Shown here: positions 14,984 to 52,359 of the stretch, piece by piece
How positions within the stretch are numbered: the first letter of the stretch is position 1
How the letters are laid out: each line of letters opens with the position of its first letter
Source of the DNA: Saccharopolyspora hordei
GTDB lineage: Bacteria; Actinomycetota; Actinomycetes; Mycobacteriales; Pseudonocardiaceae
Direction: 5' to 3'
Assembly: GCF_013410345.1 (NCBI RefSeq)
Contig: NZ_JACCFJ010000001.1
Location: 5,659,501-5,723,500, forward strand
Length of the DNA: 64,000 nucleotides
Made by a program: the position numbers and the translations under genes
Notes under the pieces: generated by a model
Seen by the model: the letters and a program-made list of their open reading frames with translations, nothing else
What the model was told of the DNA's origin: nothing
The model's database searches: none

Positions 14984-15916
14984 GTGGGTACTGGCGTCCT
15001 GATCACCGTCGTCGTCGTGATGGCGCTGTTGTTCGCGGCGGCGCTGGCGCTGATCTGGCGGCTGTACACCGACAGCGCGCGCCGCGCCGACGAGGCGCTG
15101 CGCATGGTCGAGGCCGAGCGCGCCCGCAGCGCCGAGCAGCAGGCGGCGCTGCGCCGGTACGAGGTGGCGTTCGCGTCCATCACCGGCCGCGGCGAGCTCG
15201 GCGAGCAGGTGCTGGTCGAGACGGCGCGGTCGCTGGGGCTGCGCGAGGGCGTCCACTTCACCCTGCAGACCGACCTCGCCGGCGGGGGCGCGGCGCGACC
15301 GGACATGGTGCTCCTGGTCGGCGGCGGCCGGCAGGTCCCGGTCGACGCGAAGGCGAGCCTGGCGGTGTGGGCCGAGGCGGTGGAGACCGACGACCCCGAG
15401 GAACGCCGCGACGCGCTGCGGGTCCACGTGCGCAACATCCGCTCCCGCGCCACCGAGCTCGCGGGCAAGGGCTACCAGAAGTGGGCCGACGCGATCTACG
15501 GAACGATCATGTTCGTGCCGTCGGACGCGGCGGTGGTCGCCGCCCTGGACACCGACCCGCAGCTGCTGGGCTGGCTGCTGGACAAGCGGGTCTTCCTGTG
15601 CGGGCCAACGGGTTTCGCGGTGCTGGCCTCGGCGGCGGTGTTCGCCGCGACGGAGCGCACCATCGCCGAGGACATCGAGCAGGTGCGCGCCCAGGCGGTC
15701 CGCGCCCAGCGGGCCGCGAACAGCGCGGTGGAGGCGGTGAACCTCTCCAGCACCCACCTGCAGCGCTTCGTCTCCGCCCGCCGCCGCGAGCTCGACGCGC
15801 TGGAGTCCTTCCGCAGCGCGGTGCAGCCGCTGGCGGAAGCGGCCGGCTCCGGCAGCGTCGAGGCGGTGCGCCGCACCGAGGATGCGCTGGTCAACGGGAC
15901 GCCGCCGGCGGAGTGA
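14984..15916 (+). CDS. rmuC: RmuC-family DNA recombination protein
   Basis: A 310-residue RmuC-like protein, a membrane-anchored nuclease-fold protein thought to limit recombination at inverted repeats. An N-terminal membrane helix (VLITVVVVMALLFAAALALIW) is followed by a short coiled coil and the RmuC core, including RPDMVLLVGGGRQVPVDAKA with the aspartate and lysine of the PD-(D/E)XK fold and KGYQKWADAIYGTIMFVPSD. The frame opens at 14849, but the GTG at 14984 has GGAG five bases upstream and begins immediately before the membrane helix. Completes a cluster of repair genes; tail-to-tail with the next lipoprotein gene. Confidence 0.9.
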   Translation: MGTGVLITVVVVMALLFAAALALIWRLYTDSARRADEALRMVEAERARSAEQQAALRRYEVAFASITGRGELGEQVLVETARSLGLREGVHFTLQTDLAGGGAARPDMVLLVGGGRQVPVDAKASLAVWAEAVETDDPEERRDALRVHVRNIRSRATELAGKGYQKWADAIYGTIMFVPSDAAVVAALDTDPQLLGWLLDKRVFLCGPTGFAVLASAAVFAATERTIAEDIEQVRAQAVRAQRAANSAVEAVNLSSTHLQRFVSARRRELDALESFRSAVQPLAEAAGSGSVEAVRRTEDALVNGTPPAE

Positions 15917-15922
15917 GCCCGG

Positions 15923-16861
15923 TCAGACGTGGGTCTCCACGAAGGCCGCGACGGTGTCGACGATGAGCGCGGCGTGCGGGCCGCGACCGAAGCCGTGGTC
16001 CAGCCCCTCGTAGGGGTGCATCTCCACGGTCACGCCGAGCCGCCGCAGCTCCGCCGCGAAGTCGAGGGGCTGCTCCAGCGGCACCAGCGAGTCCGCGGTG
16101 CCCTGCTGGATCAAGAACGGCGGCTCGTCGCCGGAGAGGTTGCGGACCGGGCTGTTCGCCTCGGCCTGTTCCGGGCAGTCCACCGGCATGCAGCCGAGCA
16201 GCTGGCCGACCACCCGGCGCGCGTACTCCTGCATGTGCGGGTGCGCGCGCTGCGCCTCGGCGGTCATGTCCGTCGGGCCGAACCAGCTCACCACCGCGCG
16301 GATCCCGGTCAGCCCGCCGCCCGGCTTGCTCGGGTCACCGGCCACCGCGCCGAGCTGCGACACCAGGTGCCCGCCGGCCGAGGCACCCCAGAGCGCGACC
16401 CGGTTCGCGTCCAGCCCCCACTGCCCGCCGTGCTGCTGCAACCAGCGCACCGCGTCGGCGACGTCGATGACCTGCGCCGGTGCCCGCGCCACCCCGCTCA
16501 ACCGGTAGTCCACGGTGGCCACCGCGTAGCCACGGTCCAGCAGCCGCTCCGCGGTCAGCGCCTCGAGGGCGCCGAGGTCCGCGTCGAGGGTGCGCACCCC
16601 GGCGTCCCAGCCGCCGCCGTGCACGTAGACCACCAGCGGGACCGGGTCCGGCTGCGGGGCGGGCAGGAACAGGTCCAGCTCCAGGGCGCCGGTGTCGTGC
16701 TCGGCGTAGACCTGGTCGCGCACCACCTGGGCCGCGCCGAGGTCGCGCTCCGCCGTCTCGACCTGCGGGGCTTCGTCGGCGTCCGACACGCGCGAGCAGC
16801 CCGCGGCGACCAGGGCCGTCAGGGCGACGCAGGCCGCGAGAACACGCCGCGTGACTGACAT
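15923..16861 (-). CDS. Esterase-like alpha/beta hydrolase lipoprotein (BD-FAE type)
   Basis: A 312-residue secreted lipoprotein: basic N-terminus, hydrophobic stretch and lipobox LVAAGC, so the mature protein is anchored at Cys22. The body is an alpha/beta hydrolase of the esterase/feruloyl-esterase-like group with oxyanion motif YVHGGGW, nucleophile GASAGG, and acid and base in GTADSLVP and GLDHGFGRG. Being outside the cell, it probably removes acyl or aromatic groups from an external substrate. It lies 81 bases downstream of the FGGY kinase on the same strand, so it may be the last gene of the isomerase-kinase unit and act on decorated sugar polymers. That link is inferred from position only. 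Confidence 0.85.
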   Translation of the reverse strand: MSVTRRVLAACVALTALVAAGCSRVSDADEAPQVETAERDLGAAQVVRDQVYAEHDTGALELDLFLPAPQPDPVPLVVYVHGGGWDAGVRTLDADLGALEALTAERLLDRGYAVATVDYRLSGVARAPAQVIDVADAVRWLQQHGGQWGLDANRVALWGASAGGHLVSQLGAVAGDPSKPGGGLTGIRAVVSWFGPTDMTAEAQRAHPHMQEYARRVVGQLLGCMPVDCPEQAEANSPVRNLSGDEPPFLIQQGTADSLVPLEQPLDFAAELRRLGVTVEMHPYEGLDHGFGRGPHAALIVDTVAAFVETHV

Positions 16862-16942
16862 CCGCCCCGAGCCTCCCCGATCTCGTCAACGCTCACTCGG
16901 GTGCATGAGCTTAACAAGATCAGGTGTCCGCCCACCGCGGTT

Positions 16943-18442
16943 TCAGCCGCGCTCGTCGGCGGCGCGCTGCTCACCTGCCAGGAAGTGTGCGATCCGGACC
17001 GTGGAGTCGTAGAGGTCCCGGTAGTGCCGGTAGAAGGCGTTGTAACGCTCCGTGTGCTCCGGGTTCGGCCGAACGGTGCGCACCACCGGGTTCCAGCTGT
17101 CCGGGTCGACCGCGGTGCCGGTGCCCACCCCGGCGAGCAGCGCGTCACCGTAGGCCGCGCCGATGGTCTCGCCCGGCAGCTGCTGCTCCTGCCCGGTGAT
17201 GTCGGAGACGATCTGCGTCCACAACCCGCCCTGGGTGCCGCCGCCGACCGCGACCAGCCGCCCGGCCGTGCCGCCGGCCTCGCCCATCGCCTCCAGGTTG
17301 TGCCGGACCCCGTAGCCGATGCCCTCCAGCGCCGCCCGGTACAGCTCGGCGCGCCCGTGCTCCAGGGTCAGCCCGGCCAGGAAGCCACGCGCGTCCGGGT
17401 CGAAGATCGGCGTCCGTTCCCCCGCGAAGTACGGCAGCAGCAGGAGGCCGCGGCTGCCCGCCGGCACCGCGGAGGCCTGCTCGACCAGGTCGGCGTACTC
17501 GCCGTCGACCAGGTTCCGCAGCCACTGGGTGACCGCGCCGGAGGTCGCCATGCCCGCGGCGAGCGTGTAGGTGTCGGGGAACGCGCCGCAGGTGCCCCAC
17601 AGCGCCGGGTGCGGTCGCACCTCGTCGAGCACCTGGACGAAGAACATCGTGGTGCCGTACATGAGCATCGTGTCGCCGGGCTGGCGCACGCCCACGCTGG
17701 TGGCCTCGGCCCAGGCGTCCACGGTGCCCGCGGTGACCGGGAGCCCCTCCGGCAGGCCGGTCTCGGCCGCGGCCTGCGCGGTGACGTGCCCGACGACCTC
17801 GGTGGGCCAGGCCAGCTCCGGCAGCGGCAGGTCCGGCGCCACGCGCTGCGCCCAGTCCGCCGACCAGGTGCGGGACTGCAGGTCGTAGAGCGGGTCGCAC
17901 TGGCTGGCCGAGTGGTGGTCGAGCACGTAGCGGCCGGTGAGCCGGTGCACCAGGTACGAGCTGCACATCAGCAGCATCTCGGTGCGCCGGTAGACGTCCG
18001 GCTCGTGCTTGGCCAGCCACCGGACCTTCGGCCCCACCGCCTGGCTGGACAGCGCGGAACCGCCCCGGCGGAGGATCTCGTCGGCGCCGAGCTCCTCGGT
18101 CAGCTCGGCGATCTCCTCGGTCGCGCGGGTGTCGACGCCGTAGAGGATCGCCGGGCGCAGCGGCTTGCCGTCACCGTCCGCGGGCAGCAGCACCGGGCCG
18201 ATGCCGCTGACCCCCAGGCCGGCGATCTCCCGGCCGTCGGCGGCCGGGACGAGTTCCCGCGCCAGCGTCAGGAAGTCGTCCCACCACACCGCTTCGGGGT
18301 CGTGCTCGACCCAGCCCGGGTGCGGGTAGGACGTCTCGTGCTGGCGGCTCGCCCGGGCCAGGACCCGCCCGTCGGTGCCGACCAGGACCCCCTTCGAACT
18401 AGCCGTGCCGATGTCGATCCCGAGCAACACCTTCTCGGCCAC
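16943..18442 (-). CDS. FGGY-family carbohydrate kinase (pentulose/hexulose kinase)
   Basis: A 499-residue FGGY sugar kinase. The N-terminal ATP-binding lobe opens GIDIGTASSKGVLVGTDGRV; the catalytic aspartate is in GTVDAWAEATSVG; the C-terminal lobe has LLLLPYFAGERTPIFDPDARG (split as LLLLPYFAGERTP and IFDPDARG) and the glycine-rich VGGGTQGGLW. The GTG at 18442 is preceded by GGAGGAG. Its partner 189 bases upstream is a FucI/AraA-like isomerase, so the substrate should be the ketose that enzyme makes, for instance D-ribulose, L-fuculose or L-ribulose. It is distinct from the xylulokinase at 53.2-54.6 kb. Product would enter the pentose phosphate pathway or an aldol cleavage. Confidence 0.88.
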   Translation of the reverse strand: MAEKVLLGIDIGTASSKGVLVGTDGRVLARASRQHETSYPHPGWVEHDPEAVWWDDFLTLARELVPAADGREIAGLGVSGIGPVLLPADGDGKPLRPAILYGVDTRATEEIAELTEELGADEILRRGGSALSSQAVGPKVRWLAKHEPDVYRRTEMLLMCSSYLVHRLTGRYVLDHHSASQCDPLYDLQSRTWSADWAQRVAPDLPLPELAWPTEVVGHVTAQAAAETGLPEGLPVTAGTVDAWAEATSVGVRQPGDTMLMYGTTMFFVQVLDEVRPHPALWGTCGAFPDTYTLAAGMATSGAVTQWLRNLVDGEYADLVEQASAVPAGSRGLLLLPYFAGERTPIFDPDARGFLAGLTLEHGRAELYRAALEGIGYGVRHNLEAMGEAGGTAGRLVAVGGGTQGGLWTQIVSDITGQEQQLPGETIGAAYGDALLAGVGTGTAVDPDSWNPVVRTVRPNPEHTERYNAFYRHYRDLYDSTVRIAHFLAGEQRAADERG

Positions 18443-18631
18443 CTGACCCGCTCCTCCACAGCTCGACTGCTCGGTCCCCACCGCACCCCGCGGCAGTGCG
18501 GTCCGCGATCCCGGTGGGAACCAGGGGTCCGGTTTCCCTGGGGACCGCGTGTTGTGCGCGGGACCCGGCGCGTCGGGGCCCGACACGCCGGAGGTCCGCG
18601 ACGTCCATCAAAACCGCTCGCAGGCGTCGTG

Positions 18632-20047
18632 TCAGCCCCTGGTCCACTCGTCGAGGCGCACGCCGAGCTGCTCGGCCACGGCGCGCAGCGCCGGGCGGTG
18701 GTCCCCCGGGATCGCGTGGATGTGGTTGGCGCCGAACTTGGACAGGAACAGCTCACCCGGCGCGTCCAGCCGGGCGAAGGCGTGCGGCCACTCCGGCGTC
18801 GACTGGTCGACCAGCGCCTTGTTGGTCTCGTCGTCGTAGCTCTCGAACTCGCCCAGCATCAGCTGCAGCCGGTACTCGCCGTCCTCGCGGGTCAACCGGC
18901 CCAGCGTCATCTGCCCCGGCGCCGCGATGTGCTGCACCGACGCGCCACCGGCCGGGAAGAAGAACACCTCCGGGTAGAAGTTGACCTTGGACAGGTTCTC
19001 CGCCGGGTCGTCGCTGCGCGCGGCGTACCAGGTGGCGTGCTGGCCCGAGTTGCACAGGTCCCAGATGTCGCGGTCGGCGTGGTAGTGGCGCACGTCGGCG
19101 AACAGCACCGGCGTGCCGGAGACCGCCTTGAACAGCTGCATGGTCAGCGCGCCGTCCATGTCCGCCTCGGTGGCGCAGACGTGCGGCTCCTTCGGGCCGT
19201 TCCAGTCGTAGGGGTCGTTGAGGAACGCCTCGGTGACGTCCATCGTCGCGAAGTTCTCGGTCAGCTCCGGCTGCGCCTTGATCCCGGAGAAGTCCAGGTT
19301 CCGCTCGGCGATGATGTCCCGCACCGCCAGGTAGGAGCGCAGCTGCCGCTCCAGCAGTTCCGGGGTGAGCTTCGTGCCGTCGTAGTGCACCCCGGCGGCG
19401 TGCTGCTCGATCCACTCGCGGGCCTTGCGCGCCTCCGCCTGGTCGGCCTTCTCCGCGCGCAGCACCAGCTCGTACTGGTCGATCTCCTCGACGTCGATGC
19501 CGAACTTGCGCATCCACTCGTCGGTGTTGGCCACCGCGGTGTTCATGCCCATCGGCCGCCCGCCGAACCGGCCGAAGGTCGACCCGTGCAGCGACTTCAC
19601 CGCGGCCGCCGCCGTGGCCTGCACGCCGATCTGCTCGGCCAGCTCGGCGTCGTCCGGCGCGCCCCACGCCCGGGTGTGCTTCCGGCCGATCTGGTCCAGC
19701 GCGCCACCGGCCGCGAGCATGCCGACCAGCCCCGGCTCGGTCGGGTCGGTGCTGGCCACCAGCACCAACGGGCTCCGGGTGGCGTCCGCGGCGAGCATCG
19801 TGAAGTGCGGGAAGGCCCAGACCGTGTAGTAGAAGACGGTCACGTCCACATCGGCCGCGGCGACCTTGCGGGCCACCGAGGTGGCCAGCGCGTTGGTGGC
19901 CACCAGCTTCTCGCCGACCACCACTTCGTGCCCGGCCGCGCGCAGCGTCCGAACCAGACCGTCCTGTTTGGACCGGATGAAGTCGGCGTTGCGGGCGTGG
20001 ACGTGATCACGACCGTCGGAGATGGTGACGACACCGATGCGGGCCAC
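18632..20047 (-). CDS. L-fucose/L-arabinose isomerase-family aldose-ketose isomerase
   Basis: A 471-residue isomerase of the FucI/AraA superfamily, shorter than E. coli FucI. Likely metal and catalytic residues are the glutamate in ATEADMDGALTMQLF, the aspartate in VLFADVRHY and the histidine in FGANHIHAIPGDHRPAL (by pattern comparison with FucI Glu337, Asp361 and His528, from memory). FucI-type enzymes also convert D-arabinose to D-ribulose. The GTG at 20047 has a GGAGGG six bases upstream. It heads a minus-strand unit with the FGGY kinase and has a clear promoter plus operator at 20178-20225, divergent from the LacI regulator. Exact sugar is not readable from sequence. Confidence 0.85.
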   Translation of the reverse strand: MARIGVVTISDGRDHVHARNADFIRSKQDGLVRTLRAAGHEVVVGEKLVATNALATSVARKVAAADVDVTVFYYTVWAFPHFTMLAADATRSPLVLVASTDPTEPGLVGMLAAGGALDQIGRKHTRAWGAPDDAELAEQIGVQATAAAAVKSLHGSTFGRFGGRPMGMNTAVANTDEWMRKFGIDVEEIDQYELVLRAEKADQAEARKAREWIEQHAAGVHYDGTKLTPELLERQLRSYLAVRDIIAERNLDFSGIKAQPELTENFATMDVTEAFLNDPYDWNGPKEPHVCATEADMDGALTMQLFKAVSGTPVLFADVRHYHADRDIWDLCNSGQHATWYAARSDDPAENLSKVNFYPEVFFFPAGGASVQHIAAPGQMTLGRLTREDGEYRLQLMLGEFESYDDETNKALVDQSTPEWPHAFARLDAPGELFLSKFGANHIHAIPGDHRPALRAVAEQLGVRLDEWTRG

Positions 20048-20177
20048 GGTTCCCTCCAAGTGAGCAGGCGGCGTTGACTGCGCGGGACCGGCGACGAGGA
20101 GGCGCCGCCGGCACCACCCGGCGGGCCCCTCGCGGGGGTGCCCGACGGGACGACGTCCGAATACCGACAAGACCGGC

Positions 20178-20193
20178 GAGCAATCGTTTTCTC
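20178..20193. promoter_or_regulatory. LacI-type operator, isomerase copy
   Basis: GAGCAATC|GTTTTCTC is a near-palindrome (6 of 8 paired positions) with the central CG typical of LacI-family operators. It lies just downstream of the isomerase -10 and about 80 bases before the lacI-type start. The same 16 bases occur inverted at 27757-27772 in front of the ABC transporter. Confidence 0.75.
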
Positions 20194-20195
20194 GG

Positions 20196-20225
20196 ACGCT
20201 ATTCTGGCAGGACACGGGCTGTCAA
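20196..20225 (-). promoter_or_regulatory. Promoter of the isomerase-kinase unit
   Basis: On the reverse strand, TTGACA (20225-20220), 18 bases, then TAGCGT (20201-20196). The operator follows immediately and would cover the transcription start. The identical -35, spacing and -10 recur before the ABC transporter (27804-27775). The leader to the isomerase start is about 140 bases. Confidence 0.7.
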
Positions 20226-20271
20226 GGCGGGCAGCGCGCCATCACTCGGGAAGAGGGCACGAGGAGGAACC

Positions 20272-21273
20272 GTGGCGACGATCAGTGATGTGGCGACCCG
20301 CGCCGGGGTGTCCACCGCGACGGTCTCCCGTGCGCTCAACGGCAAGAGCACGGTCGACCCCGCGCTGGCCGCTCGGGTGTTCGCCGCGGCCGCCGAGCTC
20401 GGCTACCGGCCCAACGGACCGGCCCGCAACCTGCGCAAGCAGGAGACCGCGGTGCTGGCCCTGATCATCGCGGACGTGGAGAACCCGTTCTTCACCGCGA
20501 TCGCCCGCGGCGTGGAGGACGTGGCGCACGCGGCGGGGTACTCGGTGGTGCTGTGCAACTCCGACGACGAGCCGGAGAAGGAGCGCGAGTACATCGACGT
20601 CGCCCTCCAGGAGCGCGTCGCCGGGGTGCTGCTCTCCCCCACCGGCGACAGCGAGAGCGTCGAGCTGCTCGACCGGCACGCCACCCCGGTCGTGGCGGTG
20701 GACCGCCCGCTGCCGAACACCACGAGCGACACCGTGCTCGTGGACAGCCGGCTGGCGGCCGCCGAAGCCGTCCAGCACTTCGCCGACCAGGGGTACCGGC
20801 GGGTCGGCTGCCTCACCGGCCCGAGCGGCGTGCGCACCGCCGACGACCGCCTCGCGGGCTACCGCGACGGCGTCGAGGCGACCGGGTTGCCGGTGAGCGA
20901 GGAGCTGGTGCGGCGGTCCGAGTTCAAGGCGGCCGGGGCGAAGCAGGCGGCGCACTCGCTGCTGACCGCGCCGGACCGCCCGGACGCGGTGCTGGTCGCG
21001 AACAACATGATGGCGGTCGGGGTGCTGGAGACCTGCGCCGAGCTCGGCCTGCGCCCCGGCCGGGACGTCGGCGTGGTGGCCTTCGACGACGCGCCCTGGG
21101 CGACCCTGCTCGACCCGCCGCTGACCGTGGTCGCCCAGCCCGCCTACGACGTCGGCGCGGTCGCGGCCCAGCTGCTGCTCGGCCGGATCAGCGGCGAGCG
21201 CGCGGAGGCGACCACGAAGACCCTCTCCGCGCACCTGGTCGCCCGCGCCAGCAGCACCCGGCAGCAGGCCTGA
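20272..21273 (+). CDS. LacI-family transcriptional regulator
   Basis: A 333-residue LacI-type repressor. The N-terminal helix-turn-helix and hinge read ATISDVATRAGVSTATVSRA then LNGKSTVDPALAARV; the remainder is a periplasmic-binding-protein-like effector domain ending near LLLGRISGERAE. The GTG at 20272 follows a GAGGAGG ribosome-binding site. It is divergent from the isomerase gene. It almost certainly binds the near-palindrome in the shared intergenic region and its twin before the ABC transporter, releasing both when the transported sugar or its phosphate is present. Autoregulation is likely from the position of the site. Confidence 0.93.
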   Translation: MATISDVATRAGVSTATVSRALNGKSTVDPALAARVFAAAAELGYRPNGPARNLRKQETAVLALIIADVENPFFTAIARGVEDVAHAAGYSVVLCNSDDEPEKEREYIDVALQERVAGVLLSPTGDSESVELLDRHATPVVAVDRPLPNTTSDTVLVDSRLAAAEAVQHFADQGYRRVGCLTGPSGVRTADDRLAGYRDGVEATGLPVSEELVRRSEFKAAGAKQAAHSLLTAPDRPDAVLVANNMMAVGVLETCAELGLRPGRDVGVVAFDDAPWATLLDPPLTVVAQPAYDVGAVAAQLLLGRISGERAEATTKTLSAHLVARASSTRQQA

Positions 21274-21274
21274 A

Positions 21275-21308
21275 GCGACGGGCCACCCACCCCGGGGCGG
21301 CCCGTCGC
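21275..21308. terminator. Bidirectional terminator between lacI-type gene and GH172 gene
   Basis: Inverted repeat GCGACGGGCC / GGCCCGTCGC with a GC-rich loop, placed immediately after the regulator stop (21273) and 10 bases from the convergent GH172 stop (21319). No T-run, as is common in high-GC actinomycetes. Confidence 0.65.
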
Positions 21309-21318
21309 GCTCGGCCCG

Positions 21319-23652
21319 TCAGTCGTCGTCCGCGCCGAGGACGTCCTCCACCACGTGCCCGAGGTCGAGGAAGTCCCCGTCGTCCTGGCCCGTGGTGTGC
21401 GGGGCCGTCGTCGTCGGCCGCGAGGGCCGGGTCGGGACCGCCGAGGAGGTCGGCGGCGTCACCGACGGGGTCGGTGCCGGGACGCTCGACGGCTGGGACG
21501 GCAGCGGCGGCAGGGGCAGCAGGCTGCCGGAGACGTTCCCGCCGTACCAGTAGGCCGTCGAGCCGTAGTCCCCGGGCTCGTCGTTGCCCGGCCCGTGCTC
21601 GATGCCGGCCACCAGGTGGTGGCGGAACGGCACCGCGTCGTTGAGGAGCAGGCGGTACCCGCCCGTGCAGTCGTACCGGCAGCCGTCCCCGCCGATCTCG
21701 TGCGACGGGTTGCCCGCCATCGGCATCGAGTAGGTGGTGCCGAACCGGAAGTACCAGCCGGACTCGTAGAAGTCCTCGGTGCCGGTCCCGTGCCACGCCG
21801 GCTCGCGGGAGCCGTCCACGTAGAACCGCTCGTCGCCCTCCAGGTAGTTGCGCTGGTTCACCTCGAGCACGTGCGACTCCAGGTCGGACTGCGGCTGGGC
21901 GGTGCGCGTCTGGGCGCCCGGCGGGATCAGCCCGCGCATGCTGTGCGTGACGCCGTAGAAGGTGCCGGAGCCGCCGGTGGTCAGGAAGTTCCAGTCCTGG
22001 CCGGGCACCGTGTTCCCGCGGTGGTGGGTGGCGTGGAAGTAGCCGGTGCCGGGCGGCAGGTCGGCCGGTGCGCTGGTCACCTCGGCGGTCGCCCCGACCA
22101 CCGGCACGCCGCTGGTGTTGACCAGCTCGACCGTGGCGCCCTCGCGGAACGGCATCGGCCACCAGGACGTGTACCAGCCGTCCAGCCCCGGGTCGACCGA
22201 GCTCATCAGGCTGCGCACGTCGTACTCGCCGAGGCCGGTGCCGAAGAACTCGCCGAGCGGCGCGTCGACCGTGGTCTGCCCGTCGAAGGTGATGCGCAGC
22301 CGCACCCCGTCCAGCACCGCGTCGGAGGCGGCCACGTCCTCCGGGCTGTGCGGGTAGCGCCCGATCAGCTTCTCGCGGGCGAAGACCGGGTTGTCGATGC
22401 GGTAGCCGTGCGCGGACTCCTCACCGGGGTGCCCCGGCCCGAGGTCGAGCACGTCGGTGCGGACCCACTCGCCGCCGACCAGGCTGTGCACGTCGTAGCG
22501 GAACTCGTTGAAGTCCAGCGAGGAGGAGAGGAAGCGGTTCTCCACCTCCACCGTGGACCGGCCGGCGGTCACCTCCGCGGGCACGTCGATGACCTGCACG
22601 CCCCACAGCCCGGGGGTCGCGGCCCCGCTGCGCCACTCGCCGACCTGCCGGCCGTTGACGTGCAGGCTGCCGACCTGGTCGGCGATCTGCGGGTCGTACC
22701 GGCGGATCACCCGGATGCCCTGGTTGTCCGGGTGCACCCGCATGGTGAACCGGCTGCCGCCGCCCGCGCCGAACGCGCGGCCGTCGTCGACCACCTGCGG
22801 CGCCGCCACCACCTGCGGCAGCTTCACGCGCAGCTGGTTGACCTGGGCCGGTCCGGACAGCTCGGCGACCGTGGTGGCGGCGCCGGGGGCCAGGTCGAAG
22901 TCGCGGCGCACCGGCACGCCGCTCGGGCCGCCCTTGGGGTCGGCCACGCCGAACGCGCGCAGCTTCTCCAGCACGTCCGTGGCGGGGTCGTTCGGGTCGA
23001 AGGTCCGCACCCCGTCCGCGTCGGGGAAGACCCGGTAGGACAGGTGGTAGAAGTACGGGTTGTTCTCCACGGTGACCCGCATCGACTCGCGGTAGGGCAT
23101 CGGCACCTTGATGACCACGCCGCCCGCGGTGTCGTTGGCGTCGCCGACCAGCGGCCACGCGAACGGCGCACCGAGCTTGCCGGTGACGACGTCGATGAAC
23201 GGGGCGTCCAGCACGGTCCGGCCGTCCAGCTCGACCACGATGTTGCCGGTCGCGGAGACGTCACCGAGGGGCTCGCGGGTGCTCCAGATCGAGGTGATCT
23301 CACCGGGACCCTCGTGCTCGGCGATGACGCAGCCGCGCTCGCTGGTGCGCAGGCAGGAGTAGGTGCCCTCGAAGCCGTCGTTGTTGCCGCCGGTGCGGTC
23401 GTAGCTGGAGAACTGCAACGACTGCTCGGCGCCGCGGGACCGCGACATCGCGCTCAGGTCGCGGAAGGTGTCCCAGCCGACCGGCCCCTTGGTGGCGGCC
23501 TGGACCTGCCCCGGCGCGCGACCGGAGCCGAACCCGACGCCGGCGCCGGCGACCACGGCGGCCGCCGCGAGCACTGCGACTCCCAGGTAGGCGCCGAGCC
23601 GGCGGGCACGGGGTCCCGCGCTCGACCGCGGTGTTGCTGAGCGGACTCTCAT
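21319..23652 (-). CDS. Secreted GH172 (DUF2961) glycoside hydrolase
   Basis: A 777-residue exported protein. An Arg-rich N-terminus and a hydrophobic stretch (LGAYLGVAVLAAAAVVAGAG) form a signal peptide or membrane anchor. The body is DUF2961, now family GH172, whose known members are furanosidases: difructose-dianhydride-forming alpha-fructofuranosidases and D-arabinofuranosidases. The conserved LEGDERFYVDG and GTGTEDFYESGWYF motifs place Glu605 and Glu626 21 residues apart, the spacing I recall for the catalytic pair (Glu270/Glu291) of the Bifidobacterium enzyme. The C-terminal 70 residues are Pro/Ser/Thr-rich. ATG at 23652 chosen for its GGGGAGGG. Its place between the regulator and the importer suggests it releases the imported sugar outside the cell. 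Confidence 0.88.
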   Translation of the reverse strand: MRVRSATPRSSAGPRARRLGAYLGVAVLAAAAVVAGAGVGFGSGRAPGQVQAATKGPVGWDTFRDLSAMSRSRGAEQSLQFSSYDRTGGNNDGFEGTYSCLRTSERGCVIAEHEGPGEITSIWSTREPLGDVSATGNIVVELDGRTVLDAPFIDVVTGKLGAPFAWPLVGDANDTAGGVVIKVPMPYRESMRVTVENNPYFYHLSYRVFPDADGVRTFDPNDPATDVLEKLRAFGVADPKGGPSGVPVRRDFDLAPGAATTVAELSGPAQVNQLRVKLPQVVAAPQVVDDGRAFGAGGGSRFTMRVHPDNQGIRVIRRYDPQIADQVGSLHVNGRQVGEWRSGAATPGLWGVQVIDVPAEVTAGRSTVEVENRFLSSSLDFNEFRYDVHSLVGGEWVRTDVLDLGPGHPGEESAHGYRIDNPVFAREKLIGRYPHSPEDVAASDAVLDGVRLRITFDGQTTVDAPLGEFFGTGLGEYDVRSLMSSVDPGLDGWYTSWWPMPFREGATVELVNTSGVPVVGATAEVTSAPADLPPGTGYFHATHHRGNTVPGQDWNFLTTGGSGTFYGVTHSMRGLIPPGAQTRTAQPQSDLESHVLEVNQRNYLEGDERFYVDGSREPAWHGTGTEDFYESGWYFRFGTTYSMPMAGNPSHEIGGDGCRYDCTGGYRLLLNDAVPFRHHLVAGIEHGPGNDEPGDYGSTAYWYGGNVSGSLLPLPPLPSQPSSVPAPTPSVTPPTSSAVPTRPSRPTTTAPHTTGQDDGDFLDLGHVVEDVLGADDD

Positions 23653-23930
23653 GGTGCTCGCCCTCCCCACGCCCCACCGTCCGCAGTGGACTGTGGTGCT
23701 GCTGGTTCCGATTGATCGTGCGCGGCCACTGGATCGATCTCCCGCTCGGTGTCACAGCAGGAGATCACTCGCGCGGTTGCGCGACAGCGTAGGGAAGGAG
23801 ATCTCAGCCGTGCCAACGAATCGAGCGGTGTCGGTGAATCCGCAACCCGAATTCACTCGACCTGATGGTCACCGGGCGCGATCACGCCGGACAACCACCA
23901 ACCAGGTGTATTGCCCGGTACCAGCAGGAA

Positions 23931-23958
23931 TGCCGGACCACCGGGGGGTGGTCCGGCA
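23931..23958 (-). terminator. Distal hairpin after ABC operon
   Basis: Perfect 12-bp stem TGCCGGACCACC / GGTGGTCCGGCA with a GGGG loop. It lies downstream of the substrate-binding-protein gene, beyond a first hairpin. Confidence 0.7.
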
Positions 23959-24022
23959 CCGCGGAAATCCACATCGGACGGCGTGCGTCGCCGCGCGTCA
24001 CCCGGAAGGCCGGGTGCGAGGG

Positions 24023-24054
24023 CGGTCCGGTCACCGCGCTCGGTGACCGGACCG
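24023..24054 (-). terminator. Proximal terminator of ABC operon
   Basis: Perfect 14-bp stem CGGTCCGGTCACCG / CGGTGACCGGACCG with a CGCT loop, 14 bases beyond the stop of the substrate-binding protein at 24069. Confidence 0.8.
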
Positions 24055-24068
24055 GGTGAGCCTGACGA

Positions 24069-25073
24069 TCAGCTCCCGTTCAGCCGGGCGTAGACCTCGG
24101 CCGCGTTCTCCTGGGTGACCAACTCGGTCTGCAGGGTCTGCGTCTTCGGCACCGGCTGGCAGTCGATCAGCAGCTTCTTGGCCGCCTCGACGGCCTCCTT
24201 GCCACCGGTCGGGTACAGGTTCGTGGCCTGCAGGCGCCCCTCCTCGACGGCCTTGATGCCGCCCGAGGGGATCGGCAGCCCGTCGATGCCGACGAACTTC
24301 AGGTCGTGGCGCCCGGCCGCCTGGGCCGCCAGGTACGCACCCTCGGCCATCGGGTCGTTCTGCGCGTACACCGCCTGGATGTCGGGGTGCGCCTTGAGCA
24401 GCGCGTCCATCTTCTCCTGGCCGACCGAGCGCTCCCACTCACCGTCCGCGGTGGCCACGACCTCGATCCCGGAACCGGCGATGCCCTCCATGAAGCCCTT
24501 CTCGCGCTCCGCCGCCGGGGTCGAGCCGGAGAGGCCCTTGATCTGCACGATCTTGCCGCCCTGCGGCAGCAGCGTGTTCTTGAAGTACTCGCCGGCCTGG
24601 CGCCCGATCTGCACGTTGTCCGCGCCGATGTAGGTCGTGTAGGCATCACCCTCGACCTTGCGGTCCAGCACGATGACCGGGATGCCCTTGTTGTAGGCCT
24701 TGCGCACCACGTCGGTCAGCGGCGCGGCCTCGTTCGGCGAGATCATCAGCAGGTCGACCTGCTTGGTGATGAAGTTCTCCACGTCGCTGATCTGCTTGGA
24801 GTTGTCCTTGGCGGCGTCGGAGAACTGCACCTCGAACTGCGGCACCTGCTCAGCGGCCTTGCGGATGTCCTCGTCCATCCGCACCCGGTACGGCTCGGCG
24901 AGGTTGGCCTGGCTCATCCCGATGGTGTACTTGCCCTCGGGTCCCTCGCAGTGGGCGGTGGGGTCCTGCTGCTGCACCTGCCCGCTGTTCTCGCTGGTGG
25001 TGCCGCACCCGGCGGCGGCGAGCGCGACCGCGGCGCACGTAGCTGCGAGCAACGACCTCATTGTCTTGCGCAT
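24069..25073 (-). CDS. Sugar ABC transporter substrate-binding lipoprotein (ribose type)
   Basis: A 334-residue lipoprotein: MRKTMRSLLAATCAAVALAA followed by lipobox AAGC at Cys23, then a type I periplasmic-binding fold of the Peripla_BP_4 group (YTIGMSQANLAEPYRVRMDE, VIVLDRKVEGDAYTTYIGAD, YAQNDPMAEGAYLAAQAAG). It captures a monosaccharide outside the membrane and delivers it to the permease. The start at 25073 has GGGAGG upstream. Last gene of the operon after the ATPase and permease; two hairpins follow. Specificity cannot be read from sequence; the set of neighbours suggests a pentose or furanose. Confidence 0.9.
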   Translation of the reverse strand: MRKTMRSLLAATCAAVALAAAGCGTTSENSGQVQQQDPTAHCEGPEGKYTIGMSQANLAEPYRVRMDEDIRKAAEQVPQFEVQFSDAAKDNSKQISDVENFITKQVDLLMISPNEAAPLTDVVRKAYNKGIPVIVLDRKVEGDAYTTYIGADNVQIGRQAGEYFKNTLLPQGGKIVQIKGLSGSTPAAEREKGFMEGIAGSGIEVVATADGEWERSVGQEKMDALLKAHPDIQAVYAQNDPMAEGAYLAAQAAGRHDLKFVGIDGLPIPSGGIKAVEEGRLQATNLYPTGGKEAVEAAKKLLIDCQPVPKTQTLQTELVTQENAAEVYARLNGS

Positions 25074-25095
25074 CGTGCTTCCTCCCGGAGTTGGT

Positions 25096-26127
25096 TCACG
25101 ACGTGGGGCGCAGACGCTGCAGCGCCGCCGCCGCGACGATCACCAGACCTTTGATGAGCAGTTGCAGATCGGTGTTGACGCTGTTGAGGCTCAGGATGTT
25201 GTTGAGGATGCCGAGCAGCAGGGCGCCGGCGATGGTGCCGATGACCGAGCCGCGGCCACCGGCGAGGCTGGTGCCGCCGACGACCACCGCGGCGATGCCG
25301 TCCAGTTCGTAGGCGATGCCGTCGTTCGGGCTGCCCGCGTTGAGCTGCCCGGCGTGCACGATGCCGGCCAGCGCGGCGCAGAAGCCGGCGATGCCGAACG
25401 CGATGACCTTGACCCGGTTCACCGGCACGCCGGAGAGCCGCGCGGCCTTCTCGTTGCCGCCGATGGCGTACAGGTGCCGGGAGTACGCGCTGCTGCGCAG
25501 GAACAGGATCGCGGCCACCGCGACCACGGCGAAGACGAGCACCGGGATCGGCACCACACCGCCGAACGTGCGCTCGCCGAGCAGCGAGAACAGCACCGGG
25601 GCCTGTCCCGGGCCGTCACCGTAGGAGATCTGCACGGTCTCGCCGCCGGACCACATGCGCGCCAGCCCGCGCGCGATCTGCAGCCCGGCCAGCGTGACGA
25701 TGAACGCCTGCACCCCCAGCAGCGCGACCGCCGCCCCCTGGAGCAGGCCGAACACGATGCCCGCCACCAGCACGAGCGCGACGGTGGCCCACACGCCGAG
25801 GCCGTCCTCCACCATGAGCACGGCCGAGCCCACCGCGGCCAACCCGAGCACCGACCCCACCGACAGGTCGATGCCGCCGATGAGGATCACGAAGGTCAGG
25901 CCGACCGCGATGATCCCGATCTCGGACACCGCGCGCACGATGTTGAACAGGTTGTCGCTGGTCAGGAAGAGGATCTCGCCCTCGTCCCCGCGCGGCGAGA
26001 AGACCACCGCCGCGACGAACACCACGACCAGCCCGAAGAAGCTCTGGAAGCGGAACAGCGTCTCCGCCCTGCTGGACCGCTTCTCCGGTGCGGCCGCCGC
26101 GGGCCGTTCCGCCGTCTGGTTGCTCAC
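25096..26127 (-). CDS. Sugar ABC transporter permease (RbsC-like)
   Basis: A 343-residue multi-pass permease of the branched-chain amino acid / ribose type. It has about eight to ten hydrophobic segments and the conserved GGIDLSVGSVLGL near residue 90 and GGTSLAGGRGSVIGTIAGAL near the C-terminus. It forms the membrane channel of the importer. The ATG at 26127 overlaps the ATPase stop by 4 bases, showing translational coupling. Confidence 0.92.
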   Translation of the reverse strand: MSNQTAERPAAAAPEKRSSRAETLFRFQSFFGLVVVFVAAVVFSPRGDEGEILFLTSDNLFNIVRAVSEIGIIAVGLTFVILIGGIDLSVGSVLGLAAVGSAVLMVEDGLGVWATVALVLVAGIVFGLLQGAAVALLGVQAFIVTLAGLQIARGLARMWSGGETVQISYGDGPGQAPVLFSLLGERTFGGVVPIPVLVFAVVAVAAILFLRSSAYSRHLYAIGGNEKAARLSGVPVNRVKVIAFGIAGFCAALAGIVHAGQLNAGSPNDGIAYELDGIAAVVVGGTSLAGGRGSVIGTIAGALLLGILNNILSLNSVNTDLQLLIKGLVIVAAAALQRLRPTS

Positions 26128-27725
26128 CTGGCTCCTCCCCCGGTGCTCTGCGGTTCGCTGCCAACCGCCGGCTCGGCCCCGTCACCGTCACCGGCGCCGG
26201 CCCGCTCGCCCATCGCGGCGGCCAGCAGGTCCGCCTCGCCGACCTCCGCGGTGTCGAACTCCGCGACGCTGCGCCCACCGCGCAGCACCACCACCCGGTC
26301 GCACACGCCGACCAGCTCCGGCAGCTCCGAGGACGCCAGCAGGACCCCGATGCCGCGCCTGGCGATCTCGTCGAGCAGCTGGTAGATCTCCGCCTTCGCG
26401 CCGATGTCCACGCCGCGGGTGGGGTCGTCGAGCAGCAGCAGCCGGGGCTCGGTCAGCAGCATCCGGCTGAAGACGACCTTCTGCTGGTTGCCGCCCGACA
26501 GGGTGCCGACCGGGTCGAGGACGCGGCCGAGCTTGACCTTGAGCTGCTGCACGCTGCGCTCGGTGGCGGCCACCTCCTTGCGGCGGCGGACCAGTCCGAC
26601 CGGCCCCAGCCGGTCCAGCACCGACAGCACCGTGTTGGCCAGCACCGAGTGCTCCAGGACCAGTCCGGACGCCCTGCGGTCCTCCGGCACGAAGGCGATG
26701 CCCTCGCGCAGCGCACGGCGCGGACCCCGCGGCCGCACCGGGCGCCCGTCGAGGGTCACCTCCCCCTCCCACGTGCCGGAGGACCCCGCCCCGAACAGCG
26801 ATTCGAGCAGTTCGGTGCGACCCGAGCCGAGCAGTCCGCAGAGCCCGACGATCTCCCCGCGCCGCACGGTCAGGTCGATCCCCGCGGGCTCCCGGCGGCC
26901 CACCCGCGGCCGCCGCGGGCGCACCGCGAAGCCCGACACCTCCAGCAGGACCTCGCCGACCTCCCGGCGCCCGGAGCGGAACATCGTCTGCACCGACCGG
27001 CCCACCATCGCCTCGGCGGCCTGCTCGGCGGTCATCTCCCGGGCGTCGAACTCGGCGACCTTGCGTCCGTTGCGCAGCACGGTGGCCCGGTCGGCCACCC
27101 GGCCGATCTCGTCCATGCGGTGCGAGATGTAGACGATCCCGGTGCCCGCGCGGCGCAGTTCGGCGATCACCGCGAACAGCCGCTCCACCTCGGTGCTGGA
27201 CAGCGCCGAGGTCGGCTCGTCCATGATCAGCACCTTCGCGTCCAGCAGCAGCGCGCGGGCGATGGTCACCAGCTGCTGCTCGCCGACGCGCAGCTCACCG
27301 ACCGGGCGCTGCGGGTCCAGCTCGATGCCGGTGCGGCGCAGCAGCTCTCGGGTGCGCTCGGCCATCTTCCGCCGGTCGACCACGCCGAACCTGGTGCGCG
27401 GCTCGCGCCCGAGGTGCAGGTTCTCCGCGACGCTGAGCCCCGGGACCAGGTCGAGCTCCTGGTGGATCATCGCCACCCCGGCCTGCTGGGCGTCCGCGGG
27501 CTTGCTGAACTGCACCGGCCGGCCCTCGATCGCGATCGTGCCGGAGTGGTCGGTGACGTCGCCGGACAGCACCTTCATCAAGGTGCTCTTGCCCGCGCCG
27601 TTCTCCCCCAGCAGCGCGTGCACCTCCCCGGCCCGGACCGACAGGTCCACGCCGTCGCACGCCAGCACGCCCCCGTAGCGCTTGGTGATGCCGGTCATCT
27701 CGACCAGCGGTGGCGCCGTGCTCAT
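26124..27725 (-). CDS. Sugar ABC transporter ATP-binding protein (RbsA-like, double domain)
   Basis: A 533-residue protein with two fused ABC domains, as in RbsA/XylG. First domain: Walker A GENGAGKSTLMKVLSG, signature LRVGEQQLVTIARAL, Walker B VLIMDEPTSAL. Second domain: the degenerate P-loop GLLGSGRTELLESLFG usual for the family, and a full signature LSGGNQQKVVFSRML with LLLLDDPTRGVD. It powers sugar import. First gene of the operon; promoter and operator lie at 27757-27804. Confidence 0.94.
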   Translation of the reverse strand: MSTAPPLVEMTGITKRYGGVLACDGVDLSVRAGEVHALLGENGAGKSTLMKVLSGDVTDHSGTIAIEGRPVQFSKPADAQQAGVAMIHQELDLVPGLSVAENLHLGREPRTRFGVVDRRKMAERTRELLRRTGIELDPQRPVGELRVGEQQLVTIARALLLDAKVLIMDEPTSALSSTEVERLFAVIAELRRAGTGIVYISHRMDEIGRVADRATVLRNGRKVAEFDAREMTAEQAAEAMVGRSVQTMFRSGRREVGEVLLEVSGFAVRPRRPRVGRREPAGIDLTVRRGEIVGLCGLLGSGRTELLESLFGAGSSGTWEGEVTLDGRPVRPRGPRRALREGIAFVPEDRRASGLVLEHSVLANTVLSVLDRLGPVGLVRRRKEVAATERSVQQLKVKLGRVLDPVGTLSGGNQQKVVFSRMLLTEPRLLLLDDPTRGVDIGAKAEIYQLLDEIARRGIGVLLASSELPELVGVCDRVVVLRGGRSVAEFDTAEVGEADLLAAAMGERAGAGDGDGAEPAVGSEPQSTGGGAR

Positions 27726-27756
27726 AGGCCCCCCGTCGCGCCGTTTCGCGGAACGT

Positions 27757-27772
27757 GAGAAAACGATTGCTC
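27757..27772. promoter_or_regulatory. LacI-type operator, transporter copy
   Basis: GAGAAAAC|GATTGCTC is the exact reverse complement of the 16-mer at 20178-20193. It lies just downstream of the transporter -10 and 31 bases before its start codon, well placed to block transcription. Confidence 0.75.
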
Positions 27773-27774
27773 GG

Positions 27775-27804
27775 ACGCTAGAACGCTCACGACAGCTGTG
27801 TCAA
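27775..27804 (-). promoter_or_regulatory. Promoter of the ABC transporter operon
   Basis: Reverse strand: TTGACA (27804-27799), 18 bases, TAGCGT (27780-27775). Same elements and spacing as the isomerase promoter; both are followed by TCCGAG leading into the operator. Confidence 0.7.
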
Positions 27805-27965
27805 GGTTCACACCCCCGGCCAAGCGAGGGGTCGCCGCTCGGCGGCGTGAACATCACAATCCGGACACCACCGACCGCAACCACCCGGAACGCGGCGCGG
27901 AACGGAGCGCGAGTTGCCCAAGAGGGCTCTCGGGCCGAGGTACTGGACCGTTACCGTTGTGACCC

Positions 27966-28838
27966 GTGACCGCGATCCGCGACAGCCAGAGCGCCTCAAC
28001 CCCCGGCAACGGCGCGCCGCCCTGGTCGGCGCGCTCGGCCTTCCGCTCGGCAGGAGTGCCGCTTTGGGTTGCCGTGCTGCTGGCCGCAGTGCCCACTGCG
28101 ATCGGCACCGTGCTGGACATCCTGATCTGGAACCAGCCCGACGTCCTGTTCAAGTCGTGCTTCTTCGTCGGCTGCGTGCTGGCAGTGCTGATGGCGAAGC
28201 GGCGGAACGTGTTCGGCCCTATGGTCCAACCCCCGCTGGTCCTGGTCGTCGTCATGCCGCTGCTCGTGCTGATCACCGGGTCCGGTGCGGCCGCTGGGGC
28301 GGGCGCGACCGGCAAGGCGCTGTCGGTCGCCCGGCCGCTGATCAGCAGCTTCCCGATCATGGCCGGCGCGACGGTCGTCGCCCTGGGAATCGGGCTCGTC
28401 CGGATGTTCGTTACCGAGAAGGCCGACCACCGGCCCGAGGTCGCCGACAGCGACGCGGCCACCAAGAAGCGCCGCCGCCCCACCCCGTCCCGCGGTTCCG
28501 GGGACCGCAAGCGGCCTGACGAGCGTGGGGAGCGCCGCGAGGGGCGTCCGGCCCGGGGCGAGCGGCCCACGCGCGAGCGCGGCGACCGGGGGCGCCCCGA
28601 GCGCGGGCGCGCGCAGGCGCCGGGGCGGGCGCGCCGGGAGGAGGCGCCGCGACGCGCCGACGCGCCCCGGCGGGGCGAGGCGGGACGGCCGCGGGGCGCG
28701 GAGGGCCGGCCGGAGCGTGCCGTGCCGCCGCGGCGGGGCACCGGCCCGCGGCAGGTGCCGGGACGACCGCGGCAGGCCGAGCCGCCGCAGGGCGAACCGC
28801 CCCGGCGGCCGCGACGGCCGCGCCGCGACTTCGGCTGA
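27966..28838 (+). CDS. DUF6542 membrane protein with a long Arg-rich tail
   Basis: A 290-residue protein. Residues 30-145 hold four hydrophobic segments with WVAVLLAAVPTAIGTVLDIL and FFVGCVLAVLMAKRRNVFGP, which match the DUF6542 domain. From about residue 150 the chain is a 140-residue low-complexity tail dominated by Arg, Gly, Pro and Glu, strongly basic and probably disordered in the cytoplasm, perhaps nucleic-acid binding. GTG start at 27966. In mycobacteria the equivalent lies convergent to ispH, as here. Function unknown. Confidence 0.8.
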   Translation: MTAIRDSQSASTPGNGAPPWSARSAFRSAGVPLWVAVLLAAVPTAIGTVLDILIWNQPDVLFKSCFFVGCVLAVLMAKRRNVFGPMVQPPLVLVVVMPLLVLITGSGAAAGAGATGKALSVARPLISSFPIMAGATVVALGIGLVRMFVTEKADHRPEVADSDAATKKRRRPTPSRGSGDRKRPDERGERREGRPARGERPTRERGDRGRPERGRAQAPGRARREEAPRRADAPRRGEAGRPRGAEGRPERAVPPRRGTGPRQVPGRPRQAEPPQGEPPRRPRRPRRDFG

Positions 28839-51328: not shown

Positions 51329-52357
51329 GTGACGGCGAAGACCATGCGCGCCTCCGTGCTGCGCGACGTGCGGGACATCGGGCTGGAGGAGCGCCCGGTC
51401 CCCCGGCCCGGACCGCGCGAGGTGCTCGTGCAGGTCACCTCGGTGGGCACCTGCGGTTCGGACACCCACTACTACGAGCACGGCCGCATCGGTCCGTTCG
51501 TCGTCGAGCAGCCGCTGGTGCTCGGGCACGAGGCGGGCGGCGTCGTGGTCGAGTGCGGCCCGGAGGCCACCCGGCACGCGCCGGGCCAGCGGGTCGCCAT
51601 CGAGCCGGGCGTGCCGTGCTCGGTGTGCGCGCAGTGCCGCGCCGGCCGGTACAACCTGTGCCCGGACATGCGGTTCTACGCCACCCCGCCGGTCGACGGC
51701 GCGTTCTGCGAGTACGTCGTGGTGCACGAGGAGTTCGCCTACGCGGTGCCGGAGGCGATCTCCGACGACGCGGCCGGTCTGCTGGAGCCGCTGTCGGTGG
51801 GCATCTGGGCCAGCCGCAAGGGCCGGGTCGCGCCGGGCTCCCGGGTGCTGGTCACCGGAGCCGGGCCGATCGGCCTGGTCGCCACGCAGGCCGCCCGCGC
51901 CTTCGGCGCCACCGAGGTCGTGGTCACCGACGTCAACCCGCACCGCCTGGCGCTGGCCGAGGAGCTCGGGGCGACGGGCACCATCGACGTCCGGTCGGGC
52001 TCGCCTGCGGAGTCCGGCTACGAGCCCGAGGTGCTCCTGGAGTGCTCCGGGGTGCCGCGGGCCGCGGCCGACGGCGTCCGTGCGCTGGGCCGGGCCGGGC
52101 GCGCGGTGCTGGTCGGGATGGGCGGCGACGAGCTGCCGCTGCCGGTGTCCCACCTGCAGAACTTCGAGATCGAGCTGACCGGCACCTTCCGCTACGCCAA
52201 CACCTGGCCGACCGCCATCGCGCTCGCCTCCTCCGGCGCGGTCGACCTGGACCGGCTGGTCACCCACCGGTTCGGGCTCGCCGAGGTGGAGCAGGCGCTC
52301 ACCGTCTCGGCCCGCGACGAGACGGCGGTCAAGGCCGTCGTGCGACCGCAGGAGTAG
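51329..52357 (+). CDS. Zinc-dependent polyol dehydrogenase (xylitol/sorbitol type)
   Basis: A 342-residue medium-chain zinc dehydrogenase of the sorbitol/xylitol dehydrogenase group. Catalytic zinc ligands are in [18 protein letters not shown] and [13 protein letters not shown]; structural zinc cysteines in [18 protein letters not shown]-binding motif [20 protein letters not shown]. The GTG at 51329 follows GGAG. With a xylulokinase two genes on, xylitol to D-xylulose is the likely reaction; D-arabitol is an alternative. Confidence 0.88.
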
Positions 52358-52359
52358 CC

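Follow-up and report, generated by a model that had tools for sequence, protein, structure and literature searches.

A conserved Saccharopolyspora locus with an apparently secreted three-jelly-roll GH172 probably represents a new version of D-arabinan utilisation

Introduction

Little is understood of the turnover of D-arabinan, a signature glycan of mycobacterial-type cell walls. The closest described system is a D-arabinan cluster of Microbacterium arabinogalactanolyticum which, according to the available text of its report, comprises a GH183 endo-enzyme, the GH172 enzyme ExoMA1 (an alpha-D-arabinofuranosidase), the GH116 enzyme ExoMA2, an ATP-binding cassette (ABC) importer, an isomerase and a kinase, and for which conversion of D-arabinose to D-ribulose-5-phosphate by isomerase and kinase has already been proposed (PMC10509167). 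Here, we describe a locus of Saccharopolyspora hordei, located in a window of 64,000 nucleotides (the whole stretch of DNA analysed, positions 5659501-5723500 of a 5.78-Mb single-contig genome), which probably represents a new version of a known capacity, the utilisation of D-arabinan: the locus is real and conserved, and carries a GH172 with three jelly rolls and an apparent secretion signal.

Both systems combine a GH172 with an importer, an isomerase and a kinase, and share D-ribulose-5-phosphate as the proposed end product. As far as the accessible description of the Microbacterium cluster goes, however, its exo-enzymes have no signal sequence, whereas the GH172 of our locus is apparently secreted and belongs to another clade; its importer has an SBP_bac_8-type binding protein and is a presumed oligosaccharide carrier, while ours is of the CUT2 type; and GH183 and GH116 lie inside that cluster, but elsewhere in the genome for the Saccharopolyspora locus. 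FGGY kinases have also been noted before as neighbours of DUF2961 genes, according to the accessible part of PMC8812541.

The locus and its proposed function

In all likelihood, the locus is a D-arabinofuranoside scavenging system, sequence alone not separating scavenging from recycling of the own wall. In the mechanism that we predict (reactions, sugar, inducer and direction of regulation alike) from the observed genes and their domains, the catalytic residues, a modelled fold, synteny, operators and co-occurrence, the secreted long GH172 would act extracellularly on D-arabinan oligosaccharides and split off their alpha-D-arabinofuranosyl units; GH183 and GH116 enzymes, whose genes lie elsewhere in the genome, would help to supply these oligosaccharides. 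The CUT2 ABC importer would take up free D-arabinose, the isomerase would turn it into D-ribulose, and the FGGY kinase would convert this to D-ribulose-5-phosphate, which would then enter the pentose-phosphate pathway. The LacI regulator would repress the importer operon and the isomerase-kinase operon via GAGAAAACGATTGCTC downstream of two TTGACA-N18-TAGCGT promoters, and GH172 would be transcribed largely on its own. If this is true, the genus has a defined D-arabinose regulon with a testable operator, and its GH172 belongs to a clade with no solved member that reaches Mycobacterium (19 of the best 79 loci).

Genes were called with Pfam at curated cut-offs and equivalogs with NCBIfam cut-offs. 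Every gene named in a sequence-only reading of this DNA (esterase, FGGY kinase, isomerase, LacI, GH172 and ribose-type importer) was recovered in its place above the curated Pfam cut-offs, and the end point 27804 given there corresponds to the -35 element of the importer promoter. The locus is flanked by RmuC (plus strand, end 15916) on one side and by DUF6542 (plus strand) on the other; an Rfam scan of 15800-28100 gave no RNA family at gathering score. The features are as follows:

15923-16861, minus strand: esterase-like (BD-FAE) putative lipoprotein, peripheral member (Pfam)
16943-18442, minus strand: FGGY kinase, 499 aa, XylB-like, putative D-ribulokinase (Pfam, NCBIfam)
18632-20047, minus strand: FucI-family aldose-ketose isomerase, 471 aa, putative D-arabinose isomerase (three FucI Pfam domains)
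20178-20193, unstranded: operator GAGCAATCGTTTTCTC, 2 bases 3' of the -10 of the isomerase promoter
20196-20225, minus strand: isomerase promoter, -35 TTGACA at 20220-20225, 18 bp, -10 TAGCGT at 20196-20201 (21-row genus alignment)
about 20272-21273, plus strand: LacI-family regulator (LacI helix-turn-helix and Peripla_BP_3; start judged from the leader)
21275-21308, unstranded: hairpin at the point where the lacI and GH172 genes converge (hairpin search)
21319-23670, minus strand: long GH172 (DUF2961), 783 aa, secreted as judged by eye (PF11175)
23671-23930, minus strand: GH172 leader with conserved blocks and without operator (22-row alignment, operator scan)
23931-23958, minus strand: 12-bp hairpin, the second of two (hairpin search)
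24023-24054, minus strand: perfect 14-bp hairpin, terminator- or attenuator-like, just 3' of the binding-protein stop (hairpin search)
24069-25073, minus strand: CUT2 sugar-binding protein, lipobox-like start by eye (Peripla_BP_4; RbsB-like)
25096-26127, minus strand: CUT2 permease (PF02653)
26124-27725, minus strand: CUT2 ATPase with two ABC domains (PF00005, two stretches)
27757-27772, unstranded: operator GAGAAAACGATTGCTC, 2 bases 3' of the -10 of the importer promoter
27775-27804, minus strand: importer promoter, -35 TTGACA at 27799-27804, 18 bp, -10 TAGCGT at 27775-27780 (21-row genus alignment)

Evidence for D-arabinose

D-arabinose is the best-supported sugar of the locus, and we hold this assignment to be very probable. 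The isomerase displayed the fucose isomerase N1, N2 and C domains, all above the Pfam cut-off, and keeps the residues aligned with E337 and D361 of E. coli FucI, which we take to be metal ligands; the kinase revealed both the N and the C domain of the FGGY family. A route for L-fucose or L-arabinose would need an aldolase or an epimerase, and since none was present among the ten locus proteins searched, this was counted for D-arabinose over these two sugars. The importer shows all parts of the CUT2 type, with Peripla_BP_4, BPD_transp_2 and a double-domain ATPase.

Comparison with related loci carried the assignment further. Our survey of long GH172s, consisting of the best 79 loci of a longer list with organism names attached, revealed three replaceable modules, all of which fit the conversion of D-arabinose to D-ribulose-5-phosphate, either by isomerase and then kinase or by kinase and then phosphate isomerase. 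The same isomerase and kinase were present in 17 loci. Six others combine this kinase with a FucI-family protein that has diverged strongly (23-24% identity where matched), and three (L095, L116 and L145) have a ribokinase-like kinase with a SIS protein closest to arabinose-5-phosphate isomerases, while one locus was partial. Because these modules replace one another and have one metabolic meaning, they provide independent support for D-arabinose; the arabinose-5-phosphate isomerase class, in particular, is known to fit only the step from D-arabinose to D-ribulose-5-phosphate. If true, ribokinase and arabinose-5-phosphate isomerase would form a second route for glycan D-arabinose, and among the open-licence PMC papers searched none was found that mentions “arabinose 5-phosphate isomerase” together with “D-arabinan”. 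Few genomes have the SIS gene (2/118 of the class), and as a ribokinase adjoins one of these two sampled genes, the module occurs away from GH172 as well.

Sampling that starts from the isomerase is less biased than the GH172-first survey. The isomerase was found in 16/197 class genomes, and nine of the 15 non-own loci displayed a GH172, long or short, within the flank retrieved (L177, L178, L179, L181, L183, L184, L185, L187 and L188), with a further one (L180) showing a GH183-like gene only; the stretches of L183, L186, L188 and L190 end at contig ends. In the tree, the linked short GH172s of L178, L179, L183 and L188 group with ExoMA1, and a single stretch of L177 brings together GH172 and GH116 with importer, LacI, isomerase and kinase. 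Among the best 79 loci, GH116 lies near the long GH172 in L085, L087, L097 and L127, that of L097 being about 31% identical. The host genome itself has three DUF4185/GH183 places and one GH116 place, all outside the window; the best match of its GH116 is ExoMA2 (231 bits, against 82 for the solved chain that follows). Owing to this ExoMA2-like GH116 and the three DUF4185 places, the partner activities of GH183 and GH116 are plausible in the host, though unlinked; matches to GH183 neighbours, seen near GH172 or isomerase loci, rest on an L010-type query, which is itself a weak DUF4185 match (43 bits), a query from a provisional L008 frame having matched nothing. That the host lineage probably makes arabinan, as had been supposed from the sequence, agrees with five Arabinose_trans (arabinosyltransferase) places in the genome, beside the GH183 and GH116 places just mentioned.

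Two further clusters were observed. In Paracholeplasma vituli (L145:2563-21474), a GH125, two GH76, a long and a short GH172, the SIS protein, a ribokinase-like kinase and a GH92 occur together; the mannan enzymes GH76, GH125 and GH92, both GH172 types and the SIS/ribokinase pair are the combination that one would expect for arabinomannan, and fit its use outside Actinomycetes. In another Saccharopolyspora genome (G003, L069:8200-12406), a transporter, a short GH172 and a GH183-like gene lie side by side, a second candidate D-arabinan cluster.

The long GH172

The GH172 matched PF11175 (DUF2961) with 231 bits against a cut-off of 27 and has a length of 783 aa, or of 777 aa from an ATG at residue 7; a hydrophobic N-terminal stretch, judged by eye, points to secretion. 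The signal region is followed by a jelly roll JR1a (about 62-232), a second one, JR1b (about 247-560), with a CBM35-like insert (about 290-435) inside it, a third one, JR2 (to about 714), and a Pro/Thr-rich tail. With its duplicated jelly roll and an insert resembling a carbohydrate-binding module (CBM), the protein is about twice the usual family size, which the sequence-only reading had not mentioned; the modelled fold displays the double jelly roll of the family and three jelly rolls in total.

JR2 carries E611 and E632, which were invariant in 56/56 aligned long homologues and align with E270 and E291 of alphaFFase1, described as acid/base and nucleophile in the available text of PMC8605356. 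The earlier proposal of Glu605 and Glu626 as conserved acid/base and nucleophile therefore held, the offset in numbering arising because the downstream ATG had been used as the start. The alignment comprises the window protein and 55 of the 79 loci; L071, L072, L074, L079, L080, L094, L095, L100 and L118, for which no open reading frame was picked, L141, which was too short, and 14 loci removed by hand, mostly judged to be near-copies, were left out. In JR1a, N96 and D98 align by eye with the Ca ligands N31 and D33.

The nearest described architecture is that of DgGH172b from Dysgonomonas gadei, for which the accessible part of PMC10115798 gives a predicted 1.5 DUF2961 domains, a measured dimer and weak activity on p-nitrophenyl-alpha-D-arabinofuranoside (pNP-alpha-D-Araf). 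Compared by description only, its more than one DUF2961 unit per chain is similar to the JR1a-JR1b-JR2 arrangement, but a CBM35-like insert is not mentioned in that part of its description, unlike in our GH172. As a wider proposal, put forward tentatively and with rather less than even confidence, the long GH172s may form a separate subfamily of secreted exo-D-arabinanases, in which the duplicated jelly roll would supply in cis what short relatives borrow from a neighbouring subunit and a CBM35-like module would have been inserted or appended; D-arabinose catabolism would have become linked to it on three or more occasions, through modules that are non-homologous or only very distantly related (FucI-type isomerase with FGGY kinase; ribokinase with arabinose-5-phosphate isomerase; and a further FucI-type protein that has diverged), and Saccharopolyspora would recycle its own arabinogalactan.

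The host has a second, short GH172 at about 2.53 Mb of its genome (L068:9243-10319), with no obvious signal peptide and, by eye, among housekeeping-looking genes; its best solved relative is alphaFFase1.

Conservation and distribution

In a search of 41 genomes, the long GH172 was present in 22/22 genomes of the same genus (own included) and in none of three further genera from its family. Throughout the genus, the genes follow the order SbcD-RmuC-esterase-kinase-isomerase-LacI-GH172-importer-DUF6542-IspH as far as contigs and stretches allow, and another family (L062/L105) displays the same functional set in rearranged order; for both reasons, the conservation of the locus is far beyond chance. 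In one further locus (L067), a sugar transporter and a short GH172 accompany isomerase and kinase. Long GH172s outside Actinomycetes, found among the best 79 loci in Paenibacillus, Neobacillus and Paracholeplasma, argue that scavenging exists in the family.

A few individual loci deserve mention. The stretch from Actinopolyspora righensis (L077) displayed kinase, GH172 and importer, and lacI and isomerase were not found in it. In six Micromonospora loci, the very diverged FucI-family protein lies beside the same kinase (e.g., L084:6763-8394), with Pfam scores below the cut-off. In 19/79 of the best loci (e.g., L084:16940-18628), the long GH172 occurs together with a GH43/GH32-like protein, which is possibly an enzyme with unrecognised activity on D-arabinan.

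Regulation

The operator word GAGAAAACGATTGCTC was found at 27757-27772 and its complement at 20178-20193, each 2 bases after a TTGACA-N18-TAGCGT promoter, the -35 and -10 elements being called by the promoter consensus. Allowing up to two mismatches, these were the sole matches in the window. Within the genus, and at the same tolerance, operators were present in 21/21 loci with the ATPase and in 20/21 with the lacI-isomerase gap, L061 being the one without. The LacI protein revealed both the LacI helix-turn-helix and the sugar-binding domain, and would act as a repressor at the start site. A wider LacI regulon was considered and dropped: in the whole 5.78-Mb genome, exact operators are confined to the two sites of the locus, no place has one mismatch, and five others carry two.

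The sequence-only reading had described a LacI-controlled locus built around GH172. This did not hold in that form, since the operators belong to the importer and isomerase promoters only and terminator-like hairpins precede GH172. The gap from the binding-protein gene to GH172 measures 398 bp, with the perfect 14-bp hairpin next to the stop; a stem of at least 8 after the binding-protein gene was found in 15/20 measurable genus gaps (a raw count without the mismeasured L060 and L061, which has no binding protein), three of these stems lying 68-82 bp downstream. Given gap, hairpin, conserved leader and absence of an operator, GH172 is more likely a separate transcription unit in the genus. Elsewhere, operator-related sites were seen 5' of the isomerase in Nonomuraea and 5' of the short GH172 in L107 (two mismatches).

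Discussion

The proposal of D-arabinose release, uptake and conversion stays the best reading, backed by the replaceable modules and the isomerase-first linkage, but the sugar could not be read from the GH172 clade. Here and in several other respects, our findings weigh against it. The long GH172s form a group of their own with 100/100 support, apart from all four solved GH172s, outside the ExoMA1 clade and not grouped with alphaFFase1; long rows L121, L145 and L147 sit on very long branches in this tree, and such joins may be false. Since the clade holds no solved member, the tree, by which the sugar was to have been recognised, permits no assignment, and a clade-based choice was dropped. Relative to alphaFFase1 (7v1v), DgGH172c (8ah3) and ExoMA1 (8ic8), our GH172 also has an extra jelly roll and the CBM35-like insert, and Asn608 takes the place of W267, a subsite tryptophan in alphaFFase1. 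Neither SIS gene of the random class sample has a GH172 beside it; five of the 15 isomerase-first loci (L182, L186, L189, L190 and L191) showed neither GH172 nor a GH183-like gene, and 13/15 come from one family (f34), so that they are not independent. No GH183 or GH116 place lies inside the window. Among the best 79 loci, 52 are without any tested catabolic module, including all 19 of Mycobacterium, though 11 of these 52 stretches are shorter than 13 kb (the short Saccharopolyspora stretch L070 among them). The operator scan found no site 5' of the Saccharopolyspora GH172. Isomerase and kinase both miss their equivalog cut-offs, the isomerase by far (88.5 bits against 775 for FucI), and the kinase is nearest to XylB (324 bits, cut-off 380). 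Finally, the best solved relative of the binding protein is 2x7x, with 233 bits and 124/274 identical residues (45%), the next relative reaching 149 bits.

GH172 may alternatively serve turnover of the cell's own arabinan, outside the regulon of the adjoining D-arabinose importer and catabolic genes, a reading that changes the role of GH172 and not the sugar, and that overlaps with scavenging. Its own conserved leader, the hairpins in front and the missing operator fit this, as do the 19 Mycobacterium long GH172s of the best 79 loci without tested catabolic genes, the arabinosyltransferase genes of the host, and a small-genome member of the genus (G010/L061) that is without importer, esterase and both operators and yet keeps GH172, LacI, isomerase and kinase. 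However, catabolic genes accompany this GH172 type in other families too, in different gene orders (L062/L105, L100-L102, L107 and L177), and in Micromonospora and Asanoa operator-like sites with zero to two mismatches lie 5' of the long GH172. We give a role in own turnover a lower but appreciable probability.

A fructofuranoside locus, in which GH172 would free fructose, the importer would carry it, and isomerase and kinase would act on another or a side substrate, is retained at a low probability because of the binding protein. Its closest solved relative by sequence, 2x7x, is presumably BT1754 of Bacteroides (the database entry says “sensor protein”). The rings of D-fructose and D-arabinose have an identical configuration. 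The BT1754 domain senses fructose according to the available text of PMC3404733, and it is a sensor domain there, whereas its relative at our locus is an importer component; alphaFFase1, moreover, cleaves both sugars, as far as the accessible part of PMC8605356 states. Set against this, no fructokinase was found among the ten locus proteins searched, an isomerase with an FGGY ketose kinase would be an unusual fructose route, and D-arabinan is favoured by the arabinose-5-phosphate isomerase module as well as by the genes that adjoin the related loci (GH116, GH183-like and mannanase).

Genes of these types could also serve a different aldose, such as L-fucose, D-altrose or another C5/C6 sugar from an unknown furanoside. 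This would accord with the missed FucI and XylB cut-offs and with the distance of the isomerase from all solved relatives (best 68 bits), but is very unlikely, given that the proteins searched include no additional aldolase or epimerase and that the arabinose-5-phosphate isomerase module is known to fit D-arabinose to D-ribulose-5-phosphate only.

The esterase gene is present as had been noted, with a general carbohydrate-esterase resemblance only and a lipobox-like start by eye; it was detected in Saccharopolyspora loci only (bit score above 70 in the genus set and above 60 in the 79-locus set), and therefore probably lies outside the core of the proposed system. About 25 kb away, at 51329-54574 of the window, we observed two genes, one resembling a polyol dehydrogenase and the other a further FGGY kinase, both named by eye.

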